From: Prevotella sp.
Lineage (GTDB): Bacteria > Bacteroidota > Bacteroidia > Bacteroidales > Bacteroidaceae
NCBI GenBank assembly: GCA_017458225.1
Contig: JAFTFX010000008.1
Location: 1-64,000, forward strand
Direction of reading: 5' to 3'
Length of the DNA: 64,000 nucleotides
Below, in pieces: positions 15,642 to 59,766 of this stretch (positions are counted from its first letter, which is position 1; the number at the start of each line of letters is the position of its first letter). A program made the position numbers and the translations under genes. The notes under the pieces are model-generated. The model was not told where the DNA came from. It saw only the letters and a program-made list of their open reading frames with translations, and did not search any database.

Positions 15642-15799
15642 TTTGCATACACTGCTGTCACTAAAGGCAGTATGCGGGGTCAGCTGTGATGCGGTGAAAC
15701 AAGCGTCAGTTTTCGCTCTGATTAACGTCAGTTTTCGCTCTAATTAATATCTTATCTCGCTCTGATTAATATTTAACCAGAGCGAGATATGACGTTAAT
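15642..15799. repeat. repeat locus A: 21-bp motif plus 22-bp units
   Basis: TTTGCATACACTGCTGTCAC (plus T) lies at 15642-15662. From 15699 come 22-bp units at 15699-15720, 15721-15742, 15743-15764 and 15765-15786, mostly ending CGCTCTG or CGCTCTA, and one inverted unit at 15778-15799 that contains the YfhO stop codon. It belongs to the same family as the loci at 43894-44122 and 59304-59561. Confidence 0.8.
15753..15789. terminator. bidirectional terminator-like hairpin made of repeat units
   Basis: TATCTCGCTCTG (15753-15764) pairs perfectly with CAGAGCGAGATA (15778-15789) between convergent genes. There is no long T-tract. It is created by head-to-head 22-bp units. Confidence 0.5.
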
Positions 15800-18299
15800 C
15801 ACGGCGTAACGAATATCGGATTACAGTGAGAAGAGCCGCTAAACAGAGCAACAGCAGAACACCTAAGGCTACGTAGGCAACGGCTTCCGTGCGGTCGACC
15901 GACTTCGGGAAGAACGAGAGCACCACTTCGTGTTCGCCGGCCTCTACCTGCAGGGCGCGCAGCACATAGTCGACACGTCCCAGTTCAGCCTCCTGCCCGT
16001 CGACAGTGGCCGTCCATCCGGGATAATAGACCTCAGAGAACACCACTACGCCGCCCTGGCCAGACCTCACCTTATAGGTTAGCTGGTTAGGTTCGTACTT
16101 CTCAATCGTGACAATGCTGACCGAGTCTTGCTGACGGCTCTGGCCCAGCACCTCGCTGAACTTGCTGTCGGCCACGGCCACATGGCGCAAGGGCAGCCTA
16201 CCGACGGCATCCAGTTCCTGATTGGCATTGTCAACATATTCCACCTTGTCTACCAGCCAGGCATTGCCATAGGTGTAGGGGTTCTGCACGGGTACCGTCT
16301 GTCCCGACTGCAACGGCAGGACAACGTAGCGCATGTTCAGCATGTTCAGCACGGGGAACAGGCTGTCGCCATTCACCTGTGTCATATCGCCGCCGGCATC
16401 CATGATGCCACGGAAGAGCGACTGCATCTCAGGAGCGATATGGGCATCAATGAGTTCCTGATAGCGGCGCAGCTTGGCTGCATGATAGCCACCAATAGAC
16501 TTGTGGTAGTAGCTGGTCTCGTTCTCATTGAACGTGTTGCTGGCCATGTTCAGCACGCGGTAGTCGAGCGTTTTGTCCTGCAGAATGAGCTGGTCGGTCT
16601 GCGTCAGCGGCTGCTTCTGCTCGCGCTCATACTTCGGGACGAACATCGCATCGTTCAAGTAGCGCTTGTTCACCTGCCAAAGATCGAGCAGACAGAGCAC
16701 AATCAGGAGGGCAGTCAACGGCTTGGCATTCAGCTTCTTAGCCTTGTAGAGCAGCATTAGCAGCACACCGACCACAATGATGGCGAACGAGCGCCATGCA
16801 TCGCTGGTGAACATGGCCTGACGCATCTCGGTGAGATTGGCCATGAGCGGTGCTATGTGCTCCTGCGGCAGACCTTGCAGGGCCTGCACCTCCTGGGTGG
16901 AGATGAAACTGCTGAAGAACAGAGATGGGAACAGGGCAAACAGCAAAGAGATGCCTGCCGTCAGTCCGAAGGCTGCATAGAAGCCTACTTTCCGCTCACG
17001 GCTCTCAGCATTCGCTCCTTCACTCCCACTCATCCACTCTTTCAGCGCCAGCATGGCCAGCAAAGGAATGGTGAACTCGGCAATGACCAGGATGGAAGCC
17101 ACCGTGCGGAACTTGGCATACATGGGCACGTAGTCGAGGAAAAAGTCGGTCAAGCCCATGAAATTCTTGCCCCACGACAGCATGACGGAAAGGACTGTTG
17201 CTGCAAAAAGTGCCCATTTCATCGGTCCTTTCACGATGAAAAGGCCCAAAACGAACAAGAACATCACAAAGGCACCCACGTAGACAGGACCGCTGGTTCC
17301 AGGCTGCTCACCCCAATACTGGCCTATCTGCTGGTAGATGGGCACATACTGCGGATTGGCTTTCGCCATGGCCGTCTTGTTGGATGCCAAGGGCACCGAG
17401 GCCCCACCCTTCGTGTTGGGCACCAGCAATGTCCAGGTCTCACCGATGCCATACGACCACTGGGTGATATAGTCGCGATCGAGTCCGCTTGAAGTCTGAT
17501 TGGCCGAATTGGCTTTCACCAGTTCACTCTTGCCACGCATCGACTCTTGACCGTACTCCCACGTGTGGTAAAGGTTCGACAGGTTGACCAGCACACCGAG
17601 CAGACCGCCGGCGATGCAGGCTCCCGTAGCCTTCAGGAAGTGGACATAGCGTTTCTGCTGGACGGCCTCCACCAGATAGGCCAGTATCATGAAGAGAATG
17701 ATGAACAGATAGTAGTAGGTCATCTGCACGTGGTTGGCATGCACCTCAAAGGCAGCAAACACGCCCGTAACAATGAGTCCCCACAGGTATCGTCCGCGAT
17801 AGGCCAGCACAATGCCGGCAATCATTGGCGGCAGATAGGCCAAGGCCCACACCTTCCAGATGTGGCCGGCCGCAATGATAATCAGGAAATAGGTGCTGAA
17901 GGCCCACAGCACGGAGCCCAGTGCTGCCAGGTGCTGACGGAAATCGAAGGCCCGCAGCAGGATATAGAAGCCCAGCAGATAGGCAAAGAGATACCACACA
18001 TTCTCAGGCAGCCACAAATGGTAGGCCTGCTCGGCAGCCGAGAGCGTCGCCGTGCTGTCGTACGACGGTGCCAGCTGGTAGGTAGGCATGCCAGAGAACA
18101 GCGAGTTGGTCCAACGAGTGCGTTCACCCGTACGATACAGATATTCCGATGCCTCTTGTCCGGCACCCACGCCGGCCGACGAGTCGTGGCGATAGAGAAT
18201 ACGCCCCTCAATATCGGCAGGGAAGAAATAGGCAAAGGCCAGAACGGCAAATAGCAGCACTGCCAGCAAGTCGGGCAGAATTTTCTTAACGGTGTTCAT
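15795..18299 (-). CDS. YfhO family polytopic membrane protein
   Basis: An 834-residue protein. It begins with a transmembrane helix (LLAVLLFAVLAFAYFFP), has an ordered series of hydrophobic segments to about residue 560, then a soluble region with LNMRYVVLPLQ and VVFSEVYYPGWTATVDGQEA, and a final helix. The last pattern is typical of YfhO. Family members act in envelope glycosylation or lipoteichoic acid modification in Gram-positives; the role in Bacteroidetes is not settled. The start at 18299 is set by the promoter at 18346-18353; the frame stays open upstream through the divergent nucleosidase gene, which is not coding for this protein. Confidence 0.85.
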   Translation of the reverse strand: MNTVKKILPDLLAVLLFAVLAFAYFFPADIEGRILYRHDSSAGVGAGQEASEYLYRTGERTRWTNSLFSGMPTYQLAPSYDSTATLSAAEQAYHLWLPENVWYLFAYLLGFYILLRAFDFRQHLAALGSVLWAFSTYFLIIIAAGHIWKVWALAYLPPMIAGIVLAYRGRYLWGLIVTGVFAAFEVHANHVQMTYYYLFIILFMILAYLVEAVQQKRYVHFLKATGACIAGGLLGVLVNLSNLYHTWEYGQESMRGKSELVKANSANQTSSGLDRDYITQWSYGIGETWTLLVPNTKGGASVPLASNKTAMAKANPQYVPIYQQIGQYWGEQPGTSGPVYVGAFVMFLFVLGLFIVKGPMKWALFAATVLSVMLSWGKNFMGLTDFFLDYVPMYAKFRTVASILVIAEFTIPLLAMLALKEWMSGSEGANAESRERKVGFYAAFGLTAGISLLFALFPSLFFSSFISTQEVQALQGLPQEHIAPLMANLTEMRQAMFTSDAWRSFAIIVVGVLLMLLYKAKKLNAKPLTALLIVLCLLDLWQVNKRYLNDAMFVPKYEREQKQPLTQTDQLILQDKTLDYRVLNMASNTFNENETSYYHKSIGGYHAAKLRRYQELIDAHIAPEMQSLFRGIMDAGGDMTQVNGDSLFPVLNMLNMRYVVLPLQSGQTVPVQNPYTYGNAWLVDKVEYVDNANQELDAVGRLPLRHVAVADSKFSEVLGQSRQQDSVSIVTIEKYEPNQLTYKVRSGQGGVVVFSEVYYPGWTATVDGQEAELGRVDYVLRALQVEAGEHEVVLSFFPKSVDRTEAVAYVALGVLLLLCLAALLTVIRYSLRRD

Positions 18300-18345
18300 C
18301 GTGCTTATCGTAAATGATTTTTGTCTGCTTGTTAAATATCGGGTG

Positions 18346-18353
18346 CAAAGATA
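18346..18353 (-). promoter_or_regulatory. -7 element of YfhO gene
   Basis: TATCTTTG on the minus strand, 46 bases from the ATG at 18299. It is back-to-back with the divergent mtnN promoter, 22 bases away. Confidence 0.6.
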
Positions 18354-18375
18354 ACCATTTTTACTGAAAAATGCG

Positions 18376-18383
18376 TAACTTTG
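18376..18383 (+). promoter_or_regulatory. -7 element of mtnN-luxS
   Basis: TAACTTTG, 24 bases upstream of the mtnN ATG and directly divergent from the YfhO promoter. Confidence 0.6.
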
Positions 18384-18407
18384 CAACCAAAACAATATTA
18401 ATCGTAT

Positions 18408-19037
18408 ATGAAAATAGGTATTATCGTAGCCATGGACAAGGAACTGCGACAGTTGCAGTCGCTTTTCACCGACGGACATGTGCTCGTTCAGAAATGTGGC
18501 ATCGGCAAGGTGAATGCCGCCTTGGGTGCCCAGCAAATGATCAATGAGTTCCATCCCGATGTCATCATCTCCAGCGGCTGTGCCGGCGGAAATGGCGACG
18601 ACGTCAACGTGCAGGATGTTGTGGTGAGCACCGAGCTGACCTATCACGATGTCTATTGTGGCCGTGCCATCGACGACACCACCATCTATGGTCAGGTGCA
18701 GGGCTTGCCTGCCCGGTTCAAGGCCGACCCCTACCTGCTGCGCAAGAGTGAAGAACTAAACGTCCACCCCGGACTTATTGTTACTGGCGACTGGTTCGTT
18801 GACTCGCAAGAGAAGATGCGCGAAATCATTGGGCACTTCCCCGAAGCCAAGGCTGTCGACATGGAGTCGTGTGCCATCGCACAGGCATGCTATATCAACA
18901 AGGTGCCGTTCATTTCCTTCCGCGTCATCAGCGATATTCCACTGCGCGACACCGATGCCTCGCAGTATCATAATTTCTGGGACACCATCGCCGCACGCTC
19001 TTTCCAGACCACCAAGACCTTCGTAGAGTCACTCTGA
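18408..19037 (+). CDS. mtnN: 5'-methylthioadenosine/S-adenosylhomocysteine nucleosidase
   Basis: A 209-residue cytoplasmic enzyme that removes adenine from methylthioadenosine and S-adenosylhomocysteine, yielding S-ribosylhomocysteine, the substrate of LuxS encoded next. MKIGIIVAMDKEL places Glu at residue 12, the conserved catalytic-region acid. ISSGCAGG is the phosphorylase-fold glycine loop, VDMESCAIAQ is the ribose-binding Met-Glu, and FRVISDI carries the catalytic Asp. Length is slightly short of the Escherichia coli enzyme. The 50-base gap to luxS and shared direction suggest one transcript. Confidence 0.95.
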   Translation: MKIGIIVAMDKELRQLQSLFTDGHVLVQKCGIGKVNAALGAQQMINEFHPDVIISSGCAGGNGDDVNVQDVVVSTELTYHDVYCGRAIDDTTIYGQVQGLPARFKADPYLLRKSEELNVHPGLIVTGDWFVDSQEKMREIIGHFPEAKAVDMESCAIAQACYINKVPFISFRVISDIPLRDTDASQYHNFWDTIAARSFQTTKTFVESL

Positions 19038-27986: not shown

Positions 27987-30017
27987 TTATTTCTTCGACA
28001 CGTTTGTAGCCTTAACGAAATAGATAATCAGCAGGACGTATGCAACCAATGCACACAATTCCGATAGCGGGTTGGCCAGCCACGACTCACTGATGGGGTT
28101 GAACCCGCCAAAGCGCAACAGGGCACTCACCACGCCCATCAACGCGCCACCAGCAATGAAGCCCGAAGCTATCAGCGTGCCTTTCTCGCCACGGGCATCG
28201 TTCACCGCTTTATCTTTGGATCGCGTTGTCACATACCAGTTGATGGCACCGCCCACCAGCAGCGGGGTGTTCAGTTCCAAGGGAATGAACATGCCCAGGG
28301 CGAAAGGCAGCGCCGGCACCTTGCAGAGTGTGAGCACAACGGCCAGCACGGCACCAATGGCATAGAGCAGCCACGGTGCCCCCACTCCGTTCATCAAGGG
28401 ATCGATAACGGCAGCCATCGCATTTGCCTGCGGAGCAGCCAGCTGTCCTGAGGCAAAGCCATAGGTCTCATTGAGCAGCATCATCACACCTCCTACCGTG
28501 GCTGCTGAGACAAGTGTGCCCAAGAACTTCCACGTTTCCTGCTTTCGAGGGGTCGTTCCTAACCAATAGCCAATCTTCAGGTCGGTGATGAAGGCACCCG
28601 ACATAGCCAGCGCCGTGCAGACCACGCCACCCATGATGAGGGCTGCCACCATACCGCTGGTACCGTTGAGTCCCACGCCCACCATGACCACTGAGGCCAG
28701 AATGAGTGTCATCAGGGTCATGCCGCTGACAGGATTCGAGCCCACGATGGCAATTGCATTGGCAGCCACCGTAGTAAACAGGAAGGCGATGACGGCCACC
28801 AACACGATAGCAACCAAAGCCTGAAGCAAATTACCATCCATCACCCCAAACCAGAAGAACAGGAAGGTGACAAGGATGGTTACAGCCGATGAAATGGCGA
28901 TAAATTTAAGAGAAAGGTCTTGGCTGGTTCTCGGAGTGCTCGAATTATTCGGAGTGCTCTGATCACTCTGATTATTCAGAGTATTCTGATTACTCAGATT
29001 ATTCTGACTGCTCTGAGAAATTCTCGACACGGCACCCTTGATGATATCCCAGCTTCTGATGATACCTATGACACCAGCCATAGCAATAGCACCGATACCG
29101 ATAGACTTGCCATATGCACGGAAAATTTGTTCAGGCGACATATCGCCGACAGCCATCGTGATAGAGGGGTCCCACTGGTTCAACACATCGCTGCCAAAGA
29201 CCATTGCCATGCCGGGCACTACCAGCCACCACACGGCAAACGAGCCCAGACAGATAATCAGCGCGTACTTAAAACCTATAATATAGCCTAAGCCCAGTAC
29301 GGCAGCACCCGTGTTCACCTTGAACACCAGCTTAGCATGCTCGGCCAAATCCTGACCGAAGCCCACCACTCTACTGGTGAAGTTCTCGTTCCACCAACCA
29401 AACGTAGCCACAATGAAATCGTAGATTCCGCCTACCAGTCCTGCAATCAGCAGCGGCTTGGCCTGACCACCACCCTTTGCGCCACTCACCAGCACCTGCG
29501 TGGTGGCCGTAGCCTCAGGGAAAGGATACTTGCCATGCATATCGCTGACGAAATACTTGCGGAACGGAATGAGGAACAGAATGCCAAGAATGCCACCCAA
29601 GAGGGATGCAAAGAAAATCTTCAGAAACGATGCCGACATCTCAGGATATTTTGCCTGCAGGATATAGATGGCTGGCAATGTGAAGATGGCACCGGCCACA
29701 ATGGCACCCGAACAGGCACCTATCGACTGGATGATAACATTCTCGCCCAGTGCCTTGTTGCGCTTGGCAGCCGTACTCACACCCACCGCAATGATAGCAA
29801 TGGGGATGGCAGCCTCGAACACCTGACCCACCTTCAGTCCCAGATAGGCGGCAGCGGCCGAGAAAAGCATCGCCATCAGTACGCCCCACGTCACCGACCA
29901 CGTGTTCACTTCCGGATAGACACCTCGTGGCGACATCAGCGGCTCATATTGTTCACCTTCCTTCAGTTCCCTGAATGCATTCTCGGGCAACTGGCTTTTT
30001 ACTTCAAAATCTTCCAT
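27987..30017 (-). CDS. OPT family oligopeptide transporter
   Basis: A 676-residue polytopic protein with many hydrophobic segments. TWGVLMAMLFSAAAAYLGLKVGQVFEAAIPIAI near the start and GSNPVSGMTLMTL are recognised OPT features. OPT proteins import small peptides or metal chelates with protons. About residues 328-362 form a Ser/Asn/Gln-rich loop (QSSQNNLSNQNTLNNQSDQS) encoded by degenerate TTATTCAGA-like DNA repeats, not expected in the family core and probably a cytoplasmic loop expansion. The aminotransferase lies 66 bases upstream, but co-transcription is uncertain. Confidence 0.88.
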   Translation of the reverse strand: MEDFEVKSQLPENAFRELKEGEQYEPLMSPRGVYPEVNTWSVTWGVLMAMLFSAAAAYLGLKVGQVFEAAIPIAIIAVGVSTAAKRNKALGENVIIQSIGACSGAIVAGAIFTLPAIYILQAKYPEMSASFLKIFFASLLGGILGILFLIPFRKYFVSDMHGKYPFPEATATTQVLVSGAKGGGQAKPLLIAGLVGGIYDFIVATFGWWNENFTSRVVGFGQDLAEHAKLVFKVNTGAAVLGLGYIIGFKYALIICLGSFAVWWLVVPGMAMVFGSDVLNQWDPSITMAVGDMSPEQIFRAYGKSIGIGAIAMAGVIGIIRSWDIIKGAVSRISQSSQNNLSNQNTLNNQSDQSTPNNSSTPRTSQDLSLKFIAISSAVTILVTFLFFWFGVMDGNLLQALVAIVLVAVIAFLFTTVAANAIAIVGSNPVSGMTLMTLILASVVMVGVGLNGTSGMVAALIMGGVVCTALAMSGAFITDLKIGYWLGTTPRKQETWKFLGTLVSAATVGGVMMLLNETYGFASGQLAAPQANAMAAVIDPLMNGVGAPWLLYAIGAVLAVVLTLCKVPALPFALGMFIPLELNTPLLVGGAINWYVTTRSKDKAVNDARGEKGTLIASGFIAGGALMGVVSALLRFGGFNPISESWLANPLSELCALVAYVLLIIYFVKATNVSKK

Positions 30018-43893: not shown

Positions 43894-44122
43894 TTTGCTG
43901 TCACTGCTGTCACTGTTTCTGCCATTGATGGCTCATCATGCTGCAACGAGCGTCACTTTCCACTGCAACCTGATATTAACTTCGCTGTGATCTGATATTA
44001 ATTAGAGCGAGATTTGACGCAAAACAGAGCGGAAAATGACGTTAACCAGAGCAAAAGATGACGCTCGTTGCAGCACTGCCCGACGCCCCCCTGCCACACA
44101 CAGTGACAGCAGTGTATGCAAA
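43894..44122. repeat. repeat locus B: 22-bp units inside nested inverted repeats
   Basis: Five 22-bp units on the minus strand at 43959-43980, 43981-44002, 44003-44024, 44025-44046 and 44047-44068 share AACGTCA and CGCTCTG-type ends. They are bracketed by 15-bp perfect inverted arms CTGCAACGAGCGTCA (43941-43955 and 44059-44073), and outside by a 21-bp TTTGCATACACTGCTGTCAC-type motif (inverted, 44102-44122) and a degenerate copy at 43894-43914. No gene was seen in 43813-44243. Confidence 0.8.
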
Positions 44123-53165: not shown

Positions 53166-55490
53166 ATGAAATTCTATACAAAAACTATTCTTTTTTCATG
53201 CTTTGCAGTCCTCGCTTTGACTGCAACGGCTGACAATGTTATAAAAGTAGCGCGTGTTCAGAAAACAACCACACAGAAAGCTCCTGCAGCCATGCAGTAT
53301 CAGGCCACCGAAGGCCAGCTGAACCTGCCACGCACCATCCTTCGGGCAGCAGCCAACGGTCTGACCGCCGATTTCAGCGTCCAAGACTCTGCCGCCTATG
53401 TCACCGTGTGGAGCGAGAATTTCGACAGCGACGACCGCGATGCCAAGGGCAACCTGAAACTTACTGGCTGGACTCTCGACCAAGGTGAGGGCAGCGTGGT
53501 CACCTTCACCAAAGAGAAAAAAGACTTCAACACCATCGACCCCAATGACGTGTACTCCCTGCATATCGACGGGCCTTATCAGGTATTCAAGCGCACAAAG
53601 GCATCGGCCACCAGCTCTGCCATCAGCGTGCCTAAAAACGGTCAGCTACATGCATACGTCCGCATGGCTCCCACCTGGAACGACTATGTGACACTGGCTG
53701 TGCAGATCTCTGCTGACGACTTCGCCACCACGACGGAGATATGGAACAGCAAGGAAGTGACTGAGGGCAGTGCCCGATGGATTCCCATCACGGCCGACCT
53801 CGCCGACTATGCCGGCAAGCAGATCAAGATTCGCCTGTACTGGGGCCCTGGCATCAACGACACCTTCAACACTGGCGGCTATATGGGCGATTTCTATGTT
53901 GACGGTCTGACAGTCACTGGCGTCAGCACCGTCGACCAGGTGAACGTGAAGACGGGCGAAGAGATTCGCTTTGCCGACCTCACCACAGGTGGCACGCCCA
54001 CCCGATGGGAGTGGTCGTTCCCCGGAGGAACGCCAGCTTCTTCAAACGAGCAGAACCCCGTTGTCTACTACACCGAGGGTGGCTCCTACGACGTGACGCT
54101 CAAGGTCAGCGACGGCACTGCCACAGCTGAGGTGACGAAGAAAGCCTTCGTCAGCGTGGAGGCACAGGCCCCCGAAGCCGGCGTGCTGTTCCCTGCCGAC
54201 TTCCGCACATTGGCACAGCCCCGCATGCGCATGATTGCCCCGTTGGCTCCCGTGGAATACAAGGATGCCTCCACCGGCTATCCTACTGAGTTTACTTGGA
54301 CAATGTACACGCCTTACGACCTGGCCAACAACACCGGATTTATGTTTGTTCCCGATACCGTCTTCACCACGAAAGACGTGACCTATCGCCACAACGCTCT
54401 CGATAAGTGCTATGTGCTGCACACGGCACAGAACTCGGAGGGCTACACCTTCGTTGACGACTCCGTACAGGTGCAGTTCCAAGGCATGGTGTCCAACTTC
54501 CAGCCAGCCGACAGCTATCAGACCAACTTCGTCGACGGCGACCTCACCCTGCCCGGTGCCAACAAAATGGGCATCACTGCCTGGGCTGAACGCATCTCGA
54601 AGCCTTCTGTTCCCGTGGTGCTCGAAGGCATGTACGTAGGCTTCACCAAGGCATCGGCAGAAGGACTGCTCGACCAGATCTCGTCAGTGACCTTCTCGCT
54701 CTACACCAGCGAGAACGGCCTGCCCGGCAAGCCCATTGAGATGCTTGACTCATGGATGATGAGCGAACTGAACTATGCCATGAACACCCAAAGCGGCATG
54801 GTGACCATCGAACTGGGTCGCCGCATCATTATTGACCAAGAGGTGTTCCTCGTTATTGACGGCATACCCGAGAAGAACGATTCTCTGGAATGCGCCATCG
54901 GCATGGCTCCCATGCGCACCTATGGCAACACCGCCTTCATGCTGAACAAGGGCAAGTGGCGCCCCTTTACAGGCTACTTCCAGAAAGCTCCCGGCGGTCA
55001 GACCTCGTTGAGCGTATTCCCCTATTTCAACCACTCGGTGCTCATCCCAGCCAAGGTTGACGAGCGTGGCGGCATCACTATGGGCAACGACACCACGCTG
55101 GTACCTGCCGAGGCCAGCAAGGCCGACCTGCTTGTATTTGCCAACCAGGGTGTCTATAAATATCTGGGCAGCAATGCCGACTGGTGCCGCATTCTGGGCA
55201 CACCGGGCGAATATACAGTCGACTCCGTCAGCGTTGAGTTCGATGCTCTGCCCGAGGGAATGGAGTGGCGCGATGCCATCGTCTCCGTGACCGACAGCGT
55301 GCAGACGCTGAACCTTGTGGTGCGCCAGTCGCGCAACATGCACACCGCCATCCGGACCATTCCTGCCGCAACGACCACTGTCACCGAGCGCTTCGACCTG
55401 CAAGGCCGTCGTCTGACCAACGGTCGCCAGCCTCGCGGCATCTATCTGGAACGCAAGAACGGACAAGTACGTAAAATCAAGAACCTATGA
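53166..55490 (+). CDS. exported PKD-domain protein with Prevotella-type C-terminal module
   Basis: A 774-residue protein; the start at MKFYTK (53166) gives a signal peptide, while the open frame to 53085 would encode the hairpin. After a jelly-roll-like region (WSENFDSDDRD, VYSLHIDGP) comes a PKD domain at about 245-330 (FADLTTGGTPTRWEWSFPGG and GGSYDVTLKVSDGTAT). The tail is RFDLQGRRLTNGRQPRGIYL. PKD domains are usually extracellular spacers or carbohydrate-binding. The stop overlaps the next start by four bases (ATGA). Function is unknown. Confidence 0.88.
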   Translation: MKFYTKTILFSCFAVLALTATADNVIKVARVQKTTTQKAPAAMQYQATEGQLNLPRTILRAAANGLTADFSVQDSAAYVTVWSENFDSDDRDAKGNLKLTGWTLDQGEGSVVTFTKEKKDFNTIDPNDVYSLHIDGPYQVFKRTKASATSSAISVPKNGQLHAYVRMAPTWNDYVTLAVQISADDFATTTEIWNSKEVTEGSARWIPITADLADYAGKQIKIRLYWGPGINDTFNTGGYMGDFYVDGLTVTGVSTVDQVNVKTGEEIRFADLTTGGTPTRWEWSFPGGTPASSNEQNPVVYYTEGGSYDVTLKVSDGTATAEVTKKAFVSVEAQAPEAGVLFPADFRTLAQPRMRMIAPLAPVEYKDASTGYPTEFTWTMYTPYDLANNTGFMFVPDTVFTTKDVTYRHNALDKCYVLHTAQNSEGYTFVDDSVQVQFQGMVSNFQPADSYQTNFVDGDLTLPGANKMGITAWAERISKPSVPVVLEGMYVGFTKASAEGLLDQISSVTFSLYTSENGLPGKPIEMLDSWMMSELNYAMNTQSGMVTIELGRRIIIDQEVFLVIDGIPEKNDSLECAIGMAPMRTYGNTAFMLNKGKWRPFTGYFQKAPGGQTSLSVFPYFNHSVLIPAKVDERGGITMGNDTTLVPAEASKADLLVFANQGVYKYLGSNADWCRILGTPGEYTVDSVSVEFDALPEGMEWRDAIVSVTDSVQTLNLVVRQSRNMHTAIRTIPAATTTVTERFDLQGRRLTNGRQPRGIYLERKNGQVRKIKNL

Positions 55491-58400
55491 ATCCATTCCT
55501 TTTTCCAAAGAGCCAATGGCTCGTCATCACGCTCCTTGCTCTGCTTGCAGGGACAAGTCCCACATGGGCTGAAGAGTTGACCGTTTATGACGCTTCCAAC
55601 ACCAACACAGAAGTTCCCGTGAACGGGTTCTACGGTGACAACTATCAGAAGTGCGAATTTGTGATTCCTGCCGAAGACCTGTCGGCCATGAACGGTGCGA
55701 ACATCACGGCACTGAAGTTCTATACAAACTGGGACAAGGAACTGACCAGTACGTTCCAAGTCTACATGAAAGAAGTGGAAGCTACTGCATTAACAGCCTT
55801 CACTGGTGCAGAGGATGCCACAACCGTGTATACAGGAACTATCACGGCAGCCAAAAACGAGATTGCCATTGCTTTCGCCAATGAATACAACTACAAAGGC
55901 GGTAACCTGCTGATAGGATTTTTCTCGACGACCAAGGGCAACTATGCCAACTCGTCAAACTCTGCTTTCAAGGGCAAGAATGTTGATCAGGCTGCAGCCT
56001 TTTGCGGACATAACGGTTCTTCGGTCGACGCGATAGTTGGCAGCAGCAAGTACTTCATCCCCAAGACTACTTTTACATACGAGATTCCCGTCGTAGGTCC
56101 CGGCTTTAAGGTCGTTGACTACGACAATGGCGACACTTTCACGTTCGGCTTGACGAATGCCGGCACCAAGAAGGCCCTCAAAGTCAAGAATCCCGGTACC
56201 GAGAGTGTTACCGTCAACATCGCCACTACGGGTGGCTTTGCAGCAGCCTCGACAATCACGCTCGCTGCGAAGGAAGAGAAGGATGTGGAAATCACCGCTC
56301 CTTCAGCTACTGCCAACGGCACCATCACGTTCACGCCGACTGCAACGGGTGTGCAGGCAGTAACGCTCCGCCTGAGCTGTTCCATCAAGAATCCTGCCAA
56401 AATGTTCGTCGACTTCAGTGAGAACGACCTGCCCGAAGGCTGGAAGACCGTCGGTATGGGCAGCTATACCACAGGTTCCTATGCATCCAGCTATGTATGG
56501 GATTTCTCCAAAGGCTATGCATGGTACAAGAGCTCAGGATCGAATGCTTCTTATGCCGGTTCCTACTACCACTCACTGGTCTCTCCGCTCATCAAGTTTG
56601 CTGAGGGCGAAAAACTTCTGTTCAAAGTGAAGAAAGAGCTCCAGTATTCCTCTTATGTCAGTTATCTCCGCGTGGACTATTCTGCCGACGGCACCACTTG
56701 GGCAGCAGCCGATGGCGGCACCTTCAATGATGCCGACCTGTCAGAAGACTGGAGCGAGAAGGAAATCAGCGTTCCTGCCACCACCAAGCAGATACGCTTT
56801 GTGGCAGCCGGTGTGGGCATCGACGACATCTATGGCGGCGAAGAGTCAACGGCTCCGGTCATGAAGGTCACGGCAGAGGACTTCTCGTTTGGCATGATCA
56901 ATGCCGTTGCCACCACCACGTTCACCATACAGAACAAAGGCAAGTCGACCCTGACTGGCGTAAATGTGCAGTCGAGCGATGCCAATTTCACCATTGAGGG
57001 CATTCCTGCATCGGTAGGCGTTGGCGAGACAGCCACTGTCACCGTGAAGATGTCGGCAGCCAATATCGGCACTCACGAGGCCACCATCACCATAACGGCT
57101 CCTGAGCAGGAGACCGCCACCTTCCAGGTCAGCGGCTACGTGATGGACAACACACTGTTCACCGAGACCTTCGACAGCAACACCACGCCCGACGGCTGGG
57201 AAAACACCGGTTGGACATTTGCCAACGGCGAGGCCTCTGGCGTTTGGAAAAGTCCCAAGTATCAGCTGACCACGCCTACACTGACCGTTGCTGCAGGCGA
57301 GAAGATGGTTATCGAGGCCATGAAGACGACGTACAGGGGCTCTTGCGCCATGGACATCTACGTATCAAAGGACGGCGGTGATTTCACCAAACACCAGACC
57401 ATCGACAGCGACGATCTCTCTGAAACTGCTTACAAGCTGTTCTACATCGAAGGACTTGAAGCCGGCAGCTACCAGATTCGTTTCGATGCCAACGACAACA
57501 AGATTACGGCCGTCAACGGATTCCACCGTAACACAAATGCGCCGAAGATGGAGCTCGTCTCTACCCAAGCCGCCGCATTCGGCAAGGTGGCCGCTACTCC
57601 TGACCCCAAGACCTACACGGTGAAGAACACGGGTACAGGCACGCTGACCGTCAATATCGCATCAGACAATGCAGCCTTCACCGTTGCGCCCGCACAGCTG
57701 AACATCAACGGTGGTGAGAGCGCCAACTTCACCGTCTCATTCAACTACGCCACGGGCAACTACGGCCACTTTGCCGGCAACATCACCGTTACGCCCACCT
57801 ACAACGAGGCGCTTGCCGTCACCATCGCTGCCACGGCCAAAGCCATCGACCCCAACGCCTGGGACGAGGACTTCGAGGAAGGCACACTGCCCCAAGGATG
57901 GACAGCAGACGGGTTCAGTGTTGGAAAATATACAGGATGGGGCACATTCACCAATAGCACCTATTATGCCTTCGGTTCCGCAAAAGGCTCAACTTTGATT
58001 ACTCCGCGTCTTGAAGCCAAGACCGGCGACGTGCTGACATGGGAAGCCGACATCGACTACTCTGACGAAGGCATTAAGGTAGAATACTCTGATGACGATA
58101 AGGCTACATGGAAAATACTCGATATTGAAGGATTGACTAAGAGCACAAATTCCGGGAAGGAAAACTTCTATCTCCCTGGTGACAATGGCTATTCTGCCGG
58201 TGCTGCATTGCAAATGTCGTTCACGGCTCCTGCCGATGGCTATTACTACCTGCGCTTCACCTCTTCTTATAATAGAGAAGGCCTTGACAACTTCAATGGC
58301 TTCAAGCTGGCCCTGAAGGAGCATGATGCTGCCATTACAGCTCAGGAAATCCGTGAGACCTTCACGCAGTATACCAACCATCAAGTCAGCGTCACCGTGA

Positions 58401-59290
58401 AAGAACTGGTAGGCAAGAGCGAGACGCTGACTGCCCGTTTCTTCATTGGCAACACGCAGTATGGCGAGGCAGTCACCGAGACCGTTCCTGCCGGTGGTGA
58501 GAAAGTGTTCAATATCGTTGTTCGCCTGAACGAGGTCGTCAGTGGCGATGCCTACTTTGTGGTGTCCAACGAGCATATCAACCTCGTGAGCGACAAGGTG
58601 GCTGTCACCACCAAGGCCGCCATCGTGCTCGATGAGGACATCGCTCTCGACGAGATGCCTTCGGGCTATCAGGACAAGGCTGTTGTCAAGTACACGGCAC
58701 AACAGGGCTGGAACACAATCTGTATGCCCTTCGCCCTGGACGACACCGACATGAAGGCACTCTTTGGCGAGGGATACAAATCTTATGAGTTCAAGGCCTA
58801 CAACAGCAGCACCGGCGAGATCAAGTTCGTTGAGGCCGACCGCCGCTACGCCGGCTACCCCTGCATTGTGTACTGCCAGAACGTTCCTGCCATTGCGGCC
58901 CCCGGCTATATCGTGACCTACGTTAACTTCTCGTCTACAGCGAAGGACGACAGCTATAGCGGCGTTACGTTCCAGGGCTCGTTTGCCCCGATGGGTGCAG
59001 GCTCGCTCGCCGGCAAGTATCTGGTGAAGAACGAACAGGAAGTGACTCCCGGCAATGCCGAAACGCAGCAGAAGGGCTATCGCGCCTACTTTGAACTGCC
59101 CGACGATGCCGCCGTCTATCTGGCCCTCTACAACAGCGACGGCACCATCACTCACATCAATGCCGCAGAGTTCAACCAGCAGCAGCGCACCACCGTCTAC
59201 AACCTGCAAGGCCAGCAGACCAGCGGCAAAACTCGCGGTCTGAACATCATCAAGCAAGGCAACAGCGTCCGCAAGGTCATTGTTCGCTAA
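55487..59290 (+). CDS. very large exported protein with HYDIN/ASPM-like and jelly-roll modules
   Basis: A 1267-residue protein. The signal peptide ends SPTWAEE (about residue 28). An N-terminal module of about 170 residues (LTVYDASNTNTEVPVNGFYG, FVIPAEDLSAMNG) is shared with the protein at 61172. HYDIN/ASPM-like repeats follow (FSFGMINAVATTTFTIQNKG), with choice-of-anchor J-like jelly rolls (ETFDSNTTPDGWENTGWTFA; DFEEGTLPQGWTADGF). The tail is VYNLQGQQTSGKTRGLNI. Probably surface-located or secreted; function unknown. It is translationally coupled to the PKD gene and followed by repeat locus C. Confidence 0.88.
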   Translation: MNPFLFPKSQWLVITLLALLAGTSPTWAEELTVYDASNTNTEVPVNGFYGDNYQKCEFVIPAEDLSAMNGANITALKFYTNWDKELTSTFQVYMKEVEATALTAFTGAEDATTVYTGTITAAKNEIAIAFANEYNYKGGNLLIGFFSTTKGNYANSSNSAFKGKNVDQAAAFCGHNGSSVDAIVGSSKYFIPKTTFTYEIPVVGPGFKVVDYDNGDTFTFGLTNAGTKKALKVKNPGTESVTVNIATTGGFAAASTITLAAKEEKDVEITAPSATANGTITFTPTATGVQAVTLRLSCSIKNPAKMFVDFSENDLPEGWKTVGMGSYTTGSYASSYVWDFSKGYAWYKSSGSNASYAGSYYHSLVSPLIKFAEGEKLLFKVKKELQYSSYVSYLRVDYSADGTTWAAADGGTFNDADLSEDWSEKEISVPATTKQIRFVAAGVGIDDIYGGEESTAPVMKVTAEDFSFGMINAVATTTFTIQNKGKSTLTGVNVQSSDANFTIEGIPASVGVGETATVTVKMSAANIGTHEATITITAPEQETATFQVSGYVMDNTLFTETFDSNTTPDGWENTGWTFANGEASGVWKSPKYQLTTPTLTVAAGEKMVIEAMKTTYRGSCAMDIYVSKDGGDFTKHQTIDSDDLSETAYKLFYIEGLEAGSYQIRFDANDNKITAVNGFHRNTNAPKMELVSTQAAAFGKVAATPDPKTYTVKNTGTGTLTVNIASDNAAFTVAPAQLNINGGESANFTVSFNYATGNYGHFAGNITVTPTYNEALAVTIAATAKAIDPNAWDEDFEEGTLPQGWTADGFSVGKYTGWGTFTNSTYYAFGSAKGSTLITPRLEAKTGDVLTWEADIDYSDEGIKVEYSDDDKATWKILDIEGLTKSTNSGKENFYLPGDNGYSAGAALQMSFTAPADGYYYLRFTSSYNREGLDNFNGFKLALKEHDAAITAQEIRETFTQYTNHQVSVTVKELVGKSETLTARFFIGNTQYGEAVTETVPAGGEKVFNIVVRLNEVVSGDAYFVVSNEHINLVSDKVAVTTKAAIVLDEDIALDEMPSGYQDKAVVKYTAQQGWNTICMPFALDDTDMKALFGEGYKSYEFKAYNSSTGEIKFVEADRRYAGYPCIVYCQNVPAIAAPGYIVTYVNFSSTAKDDSYSGVTFQGSFAPMGAGSLAGKYLVKNEQEVTPGNAETQQKGYRAYFELPDDAAVYLALYNSDGTITHINAAEFNQQQRTTVYNLQGQQTSGKTRGLNIIKQGNSVRKVIVR

Positions 59291-59303
59291 ACTTTTTCGC
59301 AAT

Positions 59304-59391
59304 TTTGCATACACTGCTGTCACTCCACTGCAATCGTCTGATACACAAGATATTAGTACGGCGTTTGTAGAGTGACAGCAGTGTATGCAAA
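59304..59391. repeat. repeat locus C: perfect 21-bp inverted pair
   Basis: TTTGCATACACTGCTGTCAC (plus T) at 59304-59324 and its exact inverse at 59371-59391, 46 bases apart, directly after the exported protein stop. This could form a strong hairpin or be a mobile-element end pair. Confidence 0.85.
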
Positions 59392-59451
59392 TTTCATAAA
59401 AACAAAAACCGCCATATTTCGTTGCGTCAAGAGCCGTTAGATGTTTTTGCA

Positions 59452-59561
59452 GTTTGCGTCACTTCCTGCTCTGGTTTGCATCACTTTCTGCTCTGGTTAA
59501 CGTCAAGTCTCGCTCTGGTTAACGTCAAATCTCGCTCTAGTTAATATCAGATTACAGCGAG
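59452..59561 (+). repeat. repeat locus C: tandem 22-bp units
   Basis: Five contiguous units at 59452-59473, 59474-59495, 59496-59517, 59518-59539 and 59540-59561. Four start with GTTTGC or GTTAAC and end GCTCTG or GCTCTA; the fifth starts GTTAAT and diverges at its end. No gene was recognised in the rest of the 59291-59766 gap; 59562-59707 is AT-rich. Confidence 0.85.
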
Positions 59562-59707
59562 AACAGACGCTAACTACAGCAAGATTCAATACGGATAAAA
59601 CATTCTGTTTTTGTCATTTTTTGTTGACAATTTTATCAAAAAGTCAATAATTTGCTTATAAAAATGACATTTTTTCTCATTTTTATCGTTATTTCGTTTT
59701 TTTTTGT

Positions 59708-59715
59708 TATTTTTG
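59708..59715 (+). promoter_or_regulatory. -7 element of second TA pair
   Basis: TATTTTTG, 51 bases upstream of the antitoxin ATG at 59767. Confidence 0.5.
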
Positions 59716-59766
59716 CCCGATAAAACAAAAAAAAGAAATACTGACAAAATTATAATAAGCTGCTTT

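Follow-up and report, generated by a model that had tools for sequence, protein, structure and literature searches.

A run of 22-bp tandem units lies close to an inverted motif just behind a gene in a Prevotella sp. contig, and the same combination recurs at two other places nearby. What kind of sequence is this, and from what does it derive? We analyzed it within a 64,000-nucleotide stretch of the contig (JAFTFX010000008.1, positions 1 to 64,000; the window), in the rest of its genome, and in related genomes. We interpret the locus, here called C, as most probably one end of an element whose full form carries a helicase gene of the VapE type, with that gene missing. The repeats hint at a mobile-element family built on a replication initiator protein, with no transposase.

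Anatomy of the repeat loci

Locus C opens with an A/T-rich outer edge (59293-59303) three bases past the stop codon of the gene at 55487-59290. Many other copies in the same genome have, by eye, a comparable T-rich edge in front of the motif. The left iteron pair, with the core TGCATACACT/GCTGTCACT, follows on the plus strand (59304-59325) and is matched by the right pair on the minus strand (59370-59391). These inverted arms are perfect, as originally predicted, although they are 22 bp long and not 21; the 19-mers that they contain span 84 bp end to end. The stretch 59293-59402 has an RNA fold z of -5.6. The 22-bp array occupies 59452-59561 on the plus strand. Four of the five units first counted there are clear and in register (59452-59539), while the fifth, ending at 59561, is weak with 3 mismatches to the core. 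A degenerate inverted unit with 4 mismatches lies past the array on the minus strand (59565-59580).

The same two parts are found at A and B, as had been claimed. Locus A (15644-15849) has a single iteron pair 15 bases past a stop codon (15644-15662, plus strand), three forward units (15704-15769, plus strand), and inverted units (15773-15849, minus strand), inside which the ORF of a minus-strand gene ends at 15795. At locus B (43896-44120) the array is enclosed by its two ends, a variant iteron pair TGCTGTCACT/GCTGTCACT with 3 mismatches on the left (43896-43914, plus strand) and an iteron pair on the right (44102-44120, minus strand). Its three inverted units (43993-44052, minus strand) lie within a palindrome with perfect arms of 17 bp (43939-43955 and 44059-44075). 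Tandem Repeats Finder gives a period of 22 at all three loci. A separate tandem repeat of 27 bp/18 bp at 28944-29016 in the window overlaps the minus-strand frame 27987-30017 and is unrelated in sequence to the 22-bp family.

Copies across the genome

The draft genome comprises 2.24 Mb in 46 contigs and is 74.7% complete. With up to 3 mismatches, the inverted 19-mer has 39 matches in it versus 0 for the backwards pattern, and the core of the 22-bp unit has 117 versus 6 for the reversed control. The family is therefore real, and occurrence by chance alone, the outcome that would have spoken against the original prediction, is ruled out by these controls.

All motif matches together with clustered unit matches map to at least 40 places, A, B, and C included; isolated weak matches were left out, and 40 is a minimum. 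The motif occurs without vapE at 25 of these places, and 23 of the 25 also have 22-bp units with up to 4 mismatches (L016 and L017 have none). At eight places, a motif pair spanning 84-85 bp forms a dispersed hairpin. Another 14 places have the array only, one of them (L032) with a lone variant motif 1.2 kb off, and these array-only places count against derivation from a vapE element. Motif, array, and gene occur together at a single place, L024. Many arrays turn round, with forward units followed by inverted units in a fixed register, so that these copies are long palindromes. Neither this turn nor the candidate parent gene at L024 had been anticipated in the original prediction.

A vapE unit with the same parts

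L024 has one inverted motif on each side of a 1.6-kb stretch that holds a 12-bp tandem repeat, a 22-bp array, and a frame for a VapE/DUF3874 helicase. The 12-bp repeat, ACATGTCTCCCC, is separate from the 22-bp family and has about six copies between the left motif and the array (L024 2067-2142). The frame encodes about 420-449 residues, depending on the start codon, runs through the right motif, and stops 36 bases past it. The protein matches the VapE-like family (PF05272, 4e-32), DUF3874 (2e-16), and DUF5906 in Pfam, and DNA helicase and primase families in PHROGs; NCBIfam gave no match. It contains a Walker A motif, GQGFGKS, and the motif LLINLDEFN. Its sequence also matches that of 7pds_A, a chain of known structure ("Similar to D. 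nodosus vapE", E=5e-13), which we take to be the Rep helicase of a staphylococcal island.

No frame of at least 110 amino acids was found within 950 bases upstream of this vapE gene. Its 3' end has a single motif and not a complete hairpin, and the gene (listed also as L125) is negative in the 3' hairpin test described below, which counts against the vapE-element interpretation. A second VapE gene of the genome, L247, has no such motif or array. A PIN-domain gene (PF01850; L024 3796-4218), possibly half of a toxin-antitoxin pair, adjoins the vapE unit.

vapE loci across the genus

Genes with DUF3874 are common in the genus and rare in an order-wide sample. They were detected at E<=0.001 in 59 of 100 genus genomes, 48 of them above the curated cut-off, but in only 7 of 119 genomes order-wide, 3 above the cut-off (the Prevotella sp. 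genome is included in each set). The motif itself is nearly confined to this genome. Counting it, 13 of 299 genus genomes have matches with up to 2 mismatches, and the other 12 have one or two each. An exact 16-mer of the variant form is present in 8 of 249 genomes, again with this one included, and its control in 0. The closest full-length rplC-rplD in the genus sample is 88-89% identical to that of this genome. One motif copy lies directly behind a VapE gene in each of G003, G026, and G123. Six more copies in G145, G131, and G123 (L099, L100, L107-L109, L111) have no VapE within a 3-kb stretch; at L109, a 22-bp array lies about 230 bases from the motif. Among named genomes there were four motif matches, none with an array of this type of unit. 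One of the four, L047 in a named Prevotellaceae draft genome, is an intergenic hairpin of TGCTGTCACT repeats (1019-1160) without such a unit, and no VapE-like frame was noticed in its ORF list.

The inverted ends of vapE genes are lineage-specific iterons of about 10 bp. When the 5' flank was compared with the inverted 3' flank of the same gene, 22 of 40 loci scored at or above the threshold of 15 versus 3 of 160 mismatched flank pairs (Fisher 2e-15); L024 scored 17. Direct flank matches were found at 7 of the 40 loci and in 0 of the 160 pairs. A 3' hairpin with a directly repeated arm stands behind 16 of 29 vapE genes versus 8 of 160 other ORFs (Fisher 4e-10). Two of these eight (L116 and L130) are a vapE hairpin seen from the neighbouring ORF, and L143, which has no open frame, was left out. 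The iteron behind the vapE stop codon varies by lineage. In a tree of 28 VapE sequences, the VapE of the Prevotella sp. genome groups with L139 (iteron AGCAGATGGG), apart from both L137 of G034 and the GCTGTCACT clade. The genes whose iterons are most like its own are therefore not its sisters, and iterons do not simply follow the protein phylogeny, which counts against the vapE-element interpretation. Coevolution of iterons and VapE was considered, and a tree of such depth gives it no support.

Arrays are a further common part. An array with a period of 20-24 bp within 700 bases upstream of vapE was found at 15 of 20 loci in a first batch, which included L024 and four near-identical G024 copies. 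In a second batch the count was 12 of 20, or 15 of 20 with the 3' side included; this batch was partly pre-inspected, in that shorter stretches of several loci had been seen and the upstream array of L168 (= L139) was already visible. L150, whose stretch has no vapE, was not counted. Among ORFs of the same loci, 3 of 20 had such an array. As this control was small, a wider one was made, in which 4 of 113 ORFs were positive, two of them sharing one array. The counts are not fully independent because L146-L149 and L173/L174 are related copies. Two results count against the vapE-element interpretation: 13 of the 40 vapE loci have no 5' array as defined here, and 22-bp arrays also occur away from vapE (the 4 of 113 ORFs, and 16 of 80 arrays in G045).

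The best upstream array has a period of 22 in 19 of 30 loci and of 44 in 3. Units are palindromic at p<0.05 versus shuffles in 14 of 24 cases (mean arm 5.1 versus 3.4), for example GTCCCACCCGTTGGGAC. The earlier suggestion of a binding array with sites two helical turns apart was thus close, although the unit of the Prevotella sp. genome itself is only weakly palindromic (arm 3-5; p=0.09 at L024).

Longer forms exist as well. A frame of at least 110 amino acids lies upstream at 13 of the 40 vapE loci, and among the 12 loci with scanned upstream frames, 11 have DUF6078. These DUF6078 genes of 112-165 residues are at L153, L154, L157, L158, L165, L167, L169, L170, L177, L180, and L183, and in nine of the 11 loci the order is end, DUF6078, array, vapE, end. 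DUF6078 is a candidate binder of the 22-bp units. At L153, the ends are 141 bp long with a hairpin and an outer AAAAAGTTTTTT that resembles the edge at many copies of the Prevotella sp. genome. The ends of L183 in G087, TTTTTGCATACACTGCATACACT, are close to TTTTTGCATACACTGCTGTCACT of the window.

The four equal-scoring vapE genes of G024 (L146-L149) lie in repeated segments of several kb with long matches of 91-98% identity, apparently a larger mobile or duplicated region. Recent jumps of single genes were therefore rejected here, and these copies are not counted as mobility.

Gene-less copies match the resident vapE locus

The G087-type iteron was searched in 12 chosen genomes. It has 29 matches in G034, 26 in the Prevotella sp. 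genome, 8 in G087, 3 in G020, and 0 in the other eight; the reversed control has one match, in G369. Away from vapE, we examined 13 of 15 places in G034 (C63 and one on C49 were left out) and all 6 in G087. The gene-less copies in G034 are mutually related, with an end-to-end length of 300-399 bp in nine of the 12 measured. Of the 13 examined there, 11 carry the 22-bp unit found at the resident vapE locus (L167), and 5 of the 6 in G087 carry that of L183. The anatomy of the vapE element is repeated in many genomes of the genus, and dispersed copies match the resident vapE locus in the Prevotella sp. genome, G034, and G087. It is chiefly on this identity of ends and array that we interpret locus C as one end of a vapE element that lacks the gene itself. 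G020 holds a two-gene element at the same place as G087, plus one further match with 3 mismatches. The shared place indicates that the element was inherited there and had not newly moved.

In a 400-kb sample of G045, 22 was the commonest period among tandem arrays (16 of 80). One hairpin there, whose iterons resemble those of L156, a vapE locus of G045, has 22-bp arrays on both sides and is located between sufS-like and rnhB-like frames (names by eye). As L156 has no 5' array, the array at this hairpin cannot be matched to it. No match to the iterons of L158, another vapE locus of G045, was found in the sample, where the only VapE matches were in L191, at 27-30% identity.

Proposed mechanism

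Loci A, B, and C are probably vapE-less copies of the cis-acting parts of a vapE element. The original prediction of a non-autonomous mobile element therefore came close, with vapE as the gene that the loci appear to lack. The full element is a short transposon-like unit that consists of inverted ends of ~10-bp iterons, the 22-bp array, and the gene for a VapE/DUF3874 initiator-type helicase. In some copies, the ends are a whole iteron hairpin of about 85 bp, and longer forms carry DUF6078 as well, placed between left end and array. Because the 3' hairpins of vapE resemble SaPI/PICI origins, VapE may bind the iterons through its C-terminal part and open the DNA as at a replication origin, by analogy with the Rep helicases of SaPIs and PICIs. 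DUF3874 is likely the DNA-binding part. By eye, the spacers of the window hairpins are not AT-rich, and in this they differ from a PICI origin. The array may be a row of operator-like sites that control or load the VapE complex. In the weakest step, VapE would act in trans and insert new copies of the DNA with iterons and array elsewhere in the genome, in most cases close behind a gene.

Mobility of the copies is suggested by related sequences at different places and by copy numbers that differ between genomes. No movement or clean empty site was seen, which counts against this interpretation. The flanks of A, B, and C, which had been proposed as a test for empty sites in relatives, yielded no clean one in 12 relatives, and in none of these did a flanking-gene pair of the three loci occur together among the matches listed. 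To our knowledge, VapE has no strand-cutting (nuclease) domain, and this also counts against it.

A wider proposal is that such elements form a separate class of selfish DNA, with an initiator helicase as the shared protein. Their spread would depend on replication firing at the iteron ends, with no transposase involved. They would also maintain populations of gene-less offspring, each an iteron hairpin with a 22-bp array, and the sequence of these would turn over along with the resident vapE of each species. We regard this as tentative, somewhat short of an even chance.

Alternative explanations

The hairpins may instead be leftover replication origins of PICI-type vapE satellites that were scattered by recombination and not mobilized in trans, which we consider unlikely. 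In the descriptions available, the origin of a PICI or SaPI directly follows rep on its 3' side and has a spacer between two sets of iterons (PMC6092414, PMC7581432), and the 3' hairpins of vapE have a similar layout. However, the inverted ends on both sides of vapE, and the G034 units, alike in build with nine of 12 measured at 300-399 bp, look like discrete copies and not debris.

It is improbable that the repeats are now host control sites, either bidirectional terminators or mRNA-stabilizing hairpins that are mobile no longer. Such a role would fit their position: the nearest gene end is a 3' end at 33 of 38 places with two neighbours and at 20 of 21 places with one 3' and one 5' neighbour, and the median distance to the nearest 3' end is 34.5 bases (ORFs by a simple rule, with no random-site control). 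It would also fit the folding of eight stretches, whose z lies between -1.8 (array C) and -9.5 (L045) relative to first-order resamplings, which are not exact dinucleotide shuffles. In G128 (L207/L218), the gene orthologous to the one on the right of locus A (15795-18647) is followed, by eye, by a 22-bp inverted array of different sequence; this may reflect a shared target or sequence turnover in place. However, selection on insertions also predicts the 3' bias, and four places lie between two 5' ends. A control-site role would not predict that the repeats pair with vapE, that iterons form the ends of vapE genes, or that the copies are identical to the resident vapE locus. The RNA terminator family that had been offered as another possibility is not the best interpretation, although most copies sit just past a stop codon.

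Classical MITEs, in which the motif would be an insertion-sequence end moved by an IS transposase and the array a passenger minisatellite, as proposed for BrickBuilt, are very improbable. Dispersal, inverted ends, and a tandem array are all expected of such elements, and L010, L020, and L021 are related copies (303-313 bp at 79-86%) at different places. The long frame between the ends is vapE, however, both at L024 and in G087 (L183), and in G034 and G087 the ends and array agree with those at the genome's own vapE locus. No target duplication was seen by eye at nine G034 copies, which counts against MITEs and vapE elements alike; the outer edges of the copies in the Prevotella sp. genome are indistinct.

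A CRISPR array is ruled out, as originally stated, since the units abut without spacers; a known RNA family was rejected because Rfam gave only 12 matches, all far under the gathering score, in 59200-59760; and a phage origin was rejected because viral contigs had one motif match, low-complexity by eye and without units of this type, and no VapE match.

Comparison with known systems

In the open-access literature searched, which excluded subscription papers and preprints, we found nothing linking VapE or DUF3874 with such repeats, nor the names DUF3874 and DUF6078. The pairing with vapE gives the DUF3874 genes common in the genus candidate DNA sites, and vapE elements offer an origin for a class of lineage-specific repeats. 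They also raise the question of whether dispersal needs a dedicated nuclease or can be driven by an initiator helicase alone.

BrickBuilt, a Porphyromonas gingivalis MITE with 19 copies in ATCC 33277 and a 23-nt unit, is alike in being dispersed and intergenic; it has short inverted ends, and its tandem units, each about two helical turns long, abut without spacers (PMC4596501). As described there, its ends are of the GAGACC type and resemble those of the IS5 family, and the available text reports no array-carrying parent. Here, the unit is 22 bp, the ends are TGCATACACTGCTGTCACT, and ends and array go with vapE. PINSR, a 188-bp repeat with 177 and 184 copies in two strains of Prevotella intermedia/nigrescens, is likewise a lineage-specific, intergenic, amplified Prevotella repeat (PMC4755523). 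It is set apart by its description, which in the available text gives no terminal inverted repeats and names no parent (PMC4755523). In the available descriptions of the REPIN/RAYT system, copies of a hairpin spread without the one resident gene to which it is linked (PMC3116915, PMC8266576), as seems to be the case here.

RAYT is a TnpA of the HUH type (tyrosine HUH transposase). The parent candidate here is an AAA+ helicase, VapE (PF05272) with DUF3874, and a 22-bp array is added. A hairpin that stands beside the parent gene and is also dispersed was found in G087 and G034. The Prevotella sp. genome has the eight dispersed hairpins of 84-85 bp, but L024 has single motifs.

Another parallel is the rep-ori region of SaPIs and PICIs, where iterons lie directly 3' of the gene for the initiator helicase (PMC6092414, PMC7581432). 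As far as these sources describe it, the C-terminal domain of the SaPI initiator helicase binds iterons directly downstream of its own gene (PMC7581432), and the two iteron sets of a PICI origin are separated by an AT-rich stretch (PMC6092414). Iterons 3' of the helicase gene are also seen here (16 of 29 vapE genes versus 8 of 160 ORFs). The short units examined differ in that no integrase frame is present (L024 and L156; at L156, all frames of at least 100 amino acids overlap vapE). The vapE elements differ further in having iterons on both sides of the gene, gene-less copies, and a 22-bp array.
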